IMG/VR virus record: IMGVR_UViG_3300044980_000079
Coordinates: 1 to 41,242 of that record
DNA length: 41,242 nt
Source of the DNA: a virus
Direction: 5' to 3' (one strand)
Shown: positions 1-527 of the stretch, piece after piece
Layout of the letters: every line of letters begins with the position of its first letter
Numbering within the stretch: the first letter of the stretch is position 1
Made by a program: the position numbers and the translations under genes
The notes under the pieces: model-generated
The model's input: only the letters and a program-made list of their open reading frames with translations
Databases searched by the model: none
Told to the model about the DNA's origin: nothing

Positions 1-74
1 GCGTAGGCGTCGGCGGCGTCGGCGGCGTCGGCGGCGTAGGCGGCGGCGGCGGCGGCGTCGGCGTAGGCGACGGC
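1..74. repeat. Left copy of 74-bp terminal direct repeat
   Basis: Bases 1-74 are identical, base for base, to 41169-41242. Collapsing them gives a 41,168-bp circle and restores one reading frame through the repeat gene that crosses the ends. I read this as the assembly overlap of a circular or circularly permuted genome rather than a biological terminal repeat, because it consists entirely of that gene's GGC/GTC/GTA codon repeat. Confidence 0.9.
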
Positions 75-176
75 GGCGTCGGCGTAGGCGTCGGCGTAGG
101 CGGCGGCGTCGGCGGCGGCGGCGGCGGCGGCGGCGGCGGCGTAGGCGTCGGCGGCGTAGGCGGCGGCGGCGGCGGT
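1..176 (-). repeat. GCC/GAC/TAC codon repeat (left part)
   Basis: On the minus strand the sequence is an uninterrupted in-frame run of codons GCC (Ala), GAC (Asp) and TAC (Tyr), with single GTC and ACC codons. It includes ten consecutive GCC codons at 111-140. All variants are one or two substitutions from GCC. Units such as Ala-Ala-Asp and Ala-Asp-Ala-Tyr recur irregularly. Confidence 0.9.
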
Positions 177-527
177 CCTCAATGCTTGAGGCACGGCTTT
201 CTGTATTGCCAGTCTCACCACTCGACGAACAAACTCCGCTTCATCAAGTACGCCGGCGCTTCCTAACTGACACAGCGCAAGCCGGCGAAGTCCTTTGGCA
301 CGAGCTTCGTTGCTCGACCAGTTGGAATCGTTGAGACGAATCTTCAGTGATCGCAGCGTCGGTGCCACGCACGACGGATTGTCGCCGTGATCGAAGCCGA
401 GCGCGTAGTTGACCGCTGCCTCAACGCACATCTGCCCCGGCTTTGGAACTCCCAGACCATGCACGAGTCCGGCGTCCACGACTTCCAGAACCTTGCGCGC
501 CAGCGCTTCATCGATTGTGATTTCCAT
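1..527 (-). CDS. Ala-rich repeat protein, N-terminal part (gene spans the window ends)
   Basis: This is the 5' part of a gene that continues at 41168 and ends at 40982 once the 74-bp end overlap is collapsed; the joined protein has 237 residues. The start ATG at 527-525 follows an AAGGAA ribosome site. Residues 1-117 are ordinary globular sequence with a motif like RRLALCQLGSAGVLDEAEF. From residue 118 to about 202 nearly every residue is Ala, spaced by Asp, Tyr and a few Ser/Val/Thr. A unique tail of about 35 residues follows. Phage proteins with a similar head and Ala-rich repeats exist, but I know of no function. Every Ala in the repeat section read here is GCC, which suggests recent slippage-type expansion. 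The true repeat length may be wrong if the assembly collapsed it. Confidence 0.85.
   Translation of the reverse strand, partial: MEITIDEALARKVLEVVDAGLVHGLGVPKPGQMCVEAAVNYALGFDHGDNPSCVAPTLRSLKIRLNDSNWSSNEARAKGLRRLALCQLGSAGVLDEAEFVRRVVRLAIQKAVPQALRTAAAAAYAADAYAAAAAAAAAADAAAYADAYADAAVAYADAAAAAAYAADAADAADAY

Follow-up and report, generated by a model that had tools for sequence, protein, structure and literature searches.

Why does this phage contig begin and end inside one low-complexity gene, and does the short match between its ends mark a complete genome? The stretch analysed here, hereafter the window, is IMG/VR virus record IMGVR_UViG_3300044980_000079 over its full length of 41,242 bp. Its bases 1-74 are identical to 41169-41242, as a preliminary description of the sequence had claimed, and a prefix of the window equals a suffix at lengths of 2 and 74 only; the direct repeat by which CheckV recognizes DTR contigs, with its minimum of 20 bp, is therefore present. 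When one copy is dropped, the minus-strand frame running from 527 to 1 continues from 41168 to 40982 and yields 714 bp, that is 237 amino acids and a stop, whereas the frame is shifted when both copies are kept (74 mod 3 = 2). The codon positions previously assigned to the junction (position 2 at base 1, position 3 at 41168), the joined frame and the shift without removal of a copy were all confirmed. The features around the seam are the following.

1-74, no strand: left copy of the 74-bp end overlap, an exact match masked entirely by dustmasker
41169-41242, no strand: right copy of the 74-bp end overlap, an exact match
1-527, minus strand: 5' part of the split gene (N-domain and array start), with its ATG at 527 and homologues in IMG/VR and in phage Cr30
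40982-41168, minus strand: 3' part of the split gene with one overlap copy dropped; stop at 40982-40984
171-527, minus strand: conserved 119-aa N-domain, with C34, H47, D49, C53, N66-D67 and W70-S71-S72 invariant in the alignment
1-175, minus strand: left part of the Ala/Asp/Tyr array, low-complexity (dustmasker, repeat analysis)
41088-41242, minus strand: right part of the Ala/Asp/Tyr array, low-complexity
40985-41087, minus strand: conserved C-tail '..SDKSLAAFCEDVVQILIDMKAPGCQWLFLTEAA' (tail search, E 1.2e-20; the same tail occurs in intact relatives)
40717-40959, minus strand: next gene downstream of the array gene, with a homologue in relative G002 (L002/L156)

The array is made of triplets in a single register, so that any long match within it necessarily keeps that register and recovers the frame. 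That the frame is restored identifies the ends as compatible halves of one gene without settling how long the overlap is, and as a proof of 74 bp this restoration was rejected since the array is codon-periodic. Gene continuity over the seam was found when judged by intact homologues. Indeed, the intact gene is one frame encoding the N-domain, usually a linker of ~30 residues, an alanine-rich Ala/Asp/Tyr array and a C-tail ('..AFCEDVVQILIDMKAPGCQWLFLTEAA', or a tail such as 'ARDQSLLAFAEGVVQILIEMKAPGCQWLFLTEAA'), and in the window this family C-tail was found at the end opposite the N-domain (E 1.2e-20). Furthermore, G002, which closes at another locus with a 127-bp overlap, carries an intact array gene followed by a same-strand homologue of the window's 40717-40959 gene. 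The family tail at the right end and the conserved neighbour in G002 indicate that the two ends of the window are neighbours in the genome and, as judged from homologous sequences, the end halves belong to one gene. The joined gene is devoid (around 171-175) of the ~30-residue linker that separates N-domain and array in nearly all relatives. This absence, which could be a deletion or an assembly shortcut, is a point against the genome as joined here.

The window very probably represents the entire genome of a podovirus-like phage, about 41.2 kb in size and circular or circularly permuted, that was cut inside the array. Two genes were used to place it among other phages.

5934-7289, plus strand: terminase large subunit (TerL), the query for genome-level relatives
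8155-10284, plus strand: P22-like portal protein (PF16510, E 7e-127)

The window also encodes an ERF recombinase and an integrase which, together with the P22-like portal and the terminase large subunit, it shares with P22-like headful podoviruses. P22 packages its DNA by headful, and the P22-like portal suggests that the phage of the window would do so as well. The terminases of the TerL relatives are 66-76% identical to that of the window and their contigs measure 40.6-44.3 kb, a size with which the length of the window agrees. Four of these contigs present end overlaps: G013 (139 bp), G015 (148 bp) and G018 (438 bp) close on themselves at 97-99% identity, and G014 overlaps over 146 bp at 94.5% identity. 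The seam of G017 is a DNA methylase gene split between its ends. The relatives thus open at differing loci, none of which is shared with the seam of the window, and the array gene is missing from G012-G017. Measured via the seam of the window, the accessory arc that runs between tail spike and terminase is 18.7 kb long, compared to 17.9-23.5 kb in relatives, including an unbroken arc of 21.6 kb in G013; little or nothing would thus seem to be absent at the seam. The completeness claimed by the preliminary description is therefore upheld by the intact homologues, the downstream neighbour and the size of the relatives, while the exact length of 41,168 bp that accompanied it is only nominal.

Other parts of the window deserve a brief mention. 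Terminase and portal are separated by a family 2 glycosyltransferase gene (7175-8158), for which six close relatives yielded no homologue. A DUF5131 protein is encoded at 39626-40471, where the candidate defence models PDC-M41B and PDC-M30B of PADLOC match, as candidates only. A search of the window for tRNAs and Rfam families returned no match.

The joined array measures 257 bp and has a GC content of 0.86, compared to 0.56 for the genome, and its longest exact repeat after the overlap is 32 bp. In codon-shuffled arrays the longest repeat averages about 32 bp; among 1000 shuffles it rose to 74 bp at most, and none of 5000 shuffles in a second set reached 74 bp. The 74-bp match exceeds the chance repetitiveness of the array. 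Once joined, the 41,168-bp circle contains no branching k-mers at k of at least 35; branching thus does not explain the break, and a perfect assembly would leave an overlap of k. The observed 74 bp corresponds to no usual assembler k-mer length and is below 127, the overlap found in both G002 and G007.

The most serious alternative is a genome that is circular as well, in which the match is an internal duplication of an array longer than 257 bp, so that neither copy could be removed. Duplications do occur in the family, as arrays of relatives contain internal exact repeats of 130 bp (L011), 76 bp (L001 and L003) and 70 bp (Cr30), and the ends of G034 have in common an 87-bp repeat which does not form a terminal overlap. 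Array length also differs between near-identical phages. L166 and L167, two IMG/VR records of one phage with flanks 100% and 99.8% identical, differ in the array by exactly 78 bp, and L192 and L201 (98.7% identical) by 45 bp. The array compared in the first pair lies as follows.

About 3480-3620 of L166 and L167: array

However, an internal exact repeat of at least 74 bp (76 bp at most) was found in only 2 of 48 intact arrays, a sample biased towards arrays that can be assembled, and the match occupies the two extremities of the contig exactly, the position expected if a single sequence had been read from either side. We consider the duplication unlikely, and a coverage failure in the GC-rich array, with dead ends overlapping by 74 bp, is favoured over a longer array holding the segment twice. 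The true array may nevertheless be 257 bp or longer, its joined length being nominal, and the genome length may be off by tens of bp from 41,168. The earlier caveat that the repeat length at the seam is uncertain is strengthened by the differences of 78 and 45 bp between near-identical phages.

The seam did not fall where it did by chance, as the array breaks assemblies. In the 80 best contigs carrying the array gene, a contig end lies within 400 bp of the N-domain on its downstream (array) side in 25 cases and on its upstream side in 3, for a random expectation of 1.3. When opened circles were defined as contigs whose two ends carry N-domain and tail, respectively, or both carry the tail, at least nine were found to open in the array gene (the window, G005, G009, G011, G033, G034, G040, G041 and G042), with G046 as a probable further case. 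Exact end overlaps among them are 74, 40, 35, 8, 8 and 5 bp, or none. G009 and G011 share 126 bp past a point at which the array differs; we interpret this as a merger of two variants of the array at k=127. The GC content of broken arrays exceeds that of intact ones (p=0.007). Of six genome-level relatives whose ends were read, two (G014 and G016) likewise have low-complexity coding arrays at both ends, and since these are other arrays, the end-breaking effect extends beyond the array gene. The ends of G014 (L119, L121) consist of an array of 6-bp GGACCC/GTACCC units. Those of G016 (L125, L127) encode a Cys-Ser array (CSxCSG), and their halves resemble one split gene starting with MEKTW.

Under the favoured reading of a complete genome cut inside the array, the replicating or packaged DNA would be circular or circularly permuted and may be terminally redundant, and the contig would have been cut mid-gene, within the GC-rich (0.86) and codon-periodic Ala/Asp/Tyr array. 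Reads would have run out on either side of the array, or the array would have been too polymorphic to be resolved, leaving two dead ends that overlap by 74 bp. Loss of coverage, or a polymorphic array, would then be the direct cause of the break. Being an exact direct repeat, the 74 bp could also represent a physical terminal repeat of a linear virion genome. This is highly improbable, as they fall within a coding array, the overlaps of other phages at the same place are 40, 35, 8, 8, 5 or 0 bp, and the portal is of the type of P22, a headful phage. Moreover, a T7-like terminal repeat would be expected to show fixed ends common to relatives, whereas the relatives of the window open at other genes.

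The authors of CheckV regard end repeats as often being k-mer-length remnants of circular templates broken at random, and repeats masked by dustmasker were removed as false positives from the reference set of CheckV (PMC8116208). Like the DTR contigs of CheckV, the window carries at its ends an exact direct repeat above the 20-bp minimum and is consistent with a circular or permuted template; in those contigs, however, the repeat often equals a k-mer (55, 77, 99) and the break is described as random, whereas the window has 74 bp of low-complexity sequence in a recurrent gene (PMC8116208). All 74 of its 74 bases are masked, which the reference-set rule against low-complexity repeats excludes. 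Similarly, dustmasker masked the 40-mer of G005 fully and the 35-mer of G041 mostly, and left the 127-mers of G002 and G007 unmasked. The seam was thus rightly placed inside a low-complexity gene by the preliminary description, with the Ala/Asp/Tyr array at both ends and a fully masked 74-mer. That an incomplete contig ends in two unrelated low-complexity arrays whose match is a coincidence, as the masking and the published view of such repeats as likely false positives (PMC8116208) would suggest, is very unlikely given that the right-end C-tail is the family's own, that the downstream neighbour is conserved, that length and accessory arc fit the relatives and that shuffles hardly ever reach 74 bp. 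From the evidence of genes and relatives, the low-complexity overlap of the window appears to be a true closure, supported independently of the overlap itself. Assembly features of this kind are known, and the present one extends them to a recurrent gene.

What, then, is this gene? Relatives of its N-domain were detected on 11 IMG/VR contigs by a simple search and in 183 IMG/VR stretches by an alignment search. A first scan of genome contigs returned no match, and an alignment-based search located 7 loci in bacterial contigs, mostly MAGs; plasmids yielded no relative. A further relative is present in Caulobacter phage Cr30, whose hypothetical protein AGS80886.1 (236 aa) has an N-domain 54% identical to that of the window, an alanine-rich array and the same kind of C-tail. 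Unlike in the window, where the array is GCC-based, that of Cr30 is GCT-based, the phage measures 156 kb and the gene is unbroken in the record. The Cr30 record (L012, positions 1-719) starts 8 bp past the stop of the gene, which may be a coincidence, a choice of start or a break of the same kind.

No significant family was found when the N-domain was compared to Pfam, NCBIfam, PHROGs, PADLOC and PDB sequences. An AlphaFold model of L152, a relative with a short array, is nearly all helical with a mean pLDDT of 92.7 and a confident N-domain. In that of L149, whose array comprises about 111 residues, head and tail are predicted with confidence; mid-array the model is also helical, at low confidence (block means 35-62). 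A fold search with the confident model returned no PDB match at E<=0.001 and two significant viral matches, neither of them functionally named, so that none of these comparisons points to a function. These models suggest a protein with a conserved helical head, formed by N-domain and C-tail, and a variable alanine-rich helical arm. The conserved C34, H47, D49 and C53 could form a putative metal site. Genes for ERF and a RecA-dependent nuclease lie near the array gene in the window and in a few relatives, and such nearby recombination genes make it probable that the array gene belongs to an accessory or early module. In each of the arrays of L149-L228, most alanine codons end in the same base (a median of 0.965 for intact arrays); this base is mostly C, and T, G or A in others. 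A single dominant third base is expected if arrays spread by duplication. No description of the array gene, nor of contig breaks at it, was found in the literature.

The window is thus a phage genome closed by its overlap, which reveals a systematic assembly bias. One gene family with a GC-rich coding array sets where many phage contigs end, and the resulting overlaps are discarded by the standard low-complexity filter or are too short for tools to catch. Seeking contigs that have the N-domain and the C-tail at opposite ends recovers at least nine complete circles, and for phages of this sort array lengths taken from deposited genomes are unreliable. We tentatively propose, as a plausible reading that still falls short of likely, that the array gene encodes a widespread uncharacterised phage accessory protein whose arm would gain or lose tens of codons from one near-identical phage to another, by slippage or recombination. 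Alleles would then vary within populations, and the assembly breaks would be the visible trace of this variation.
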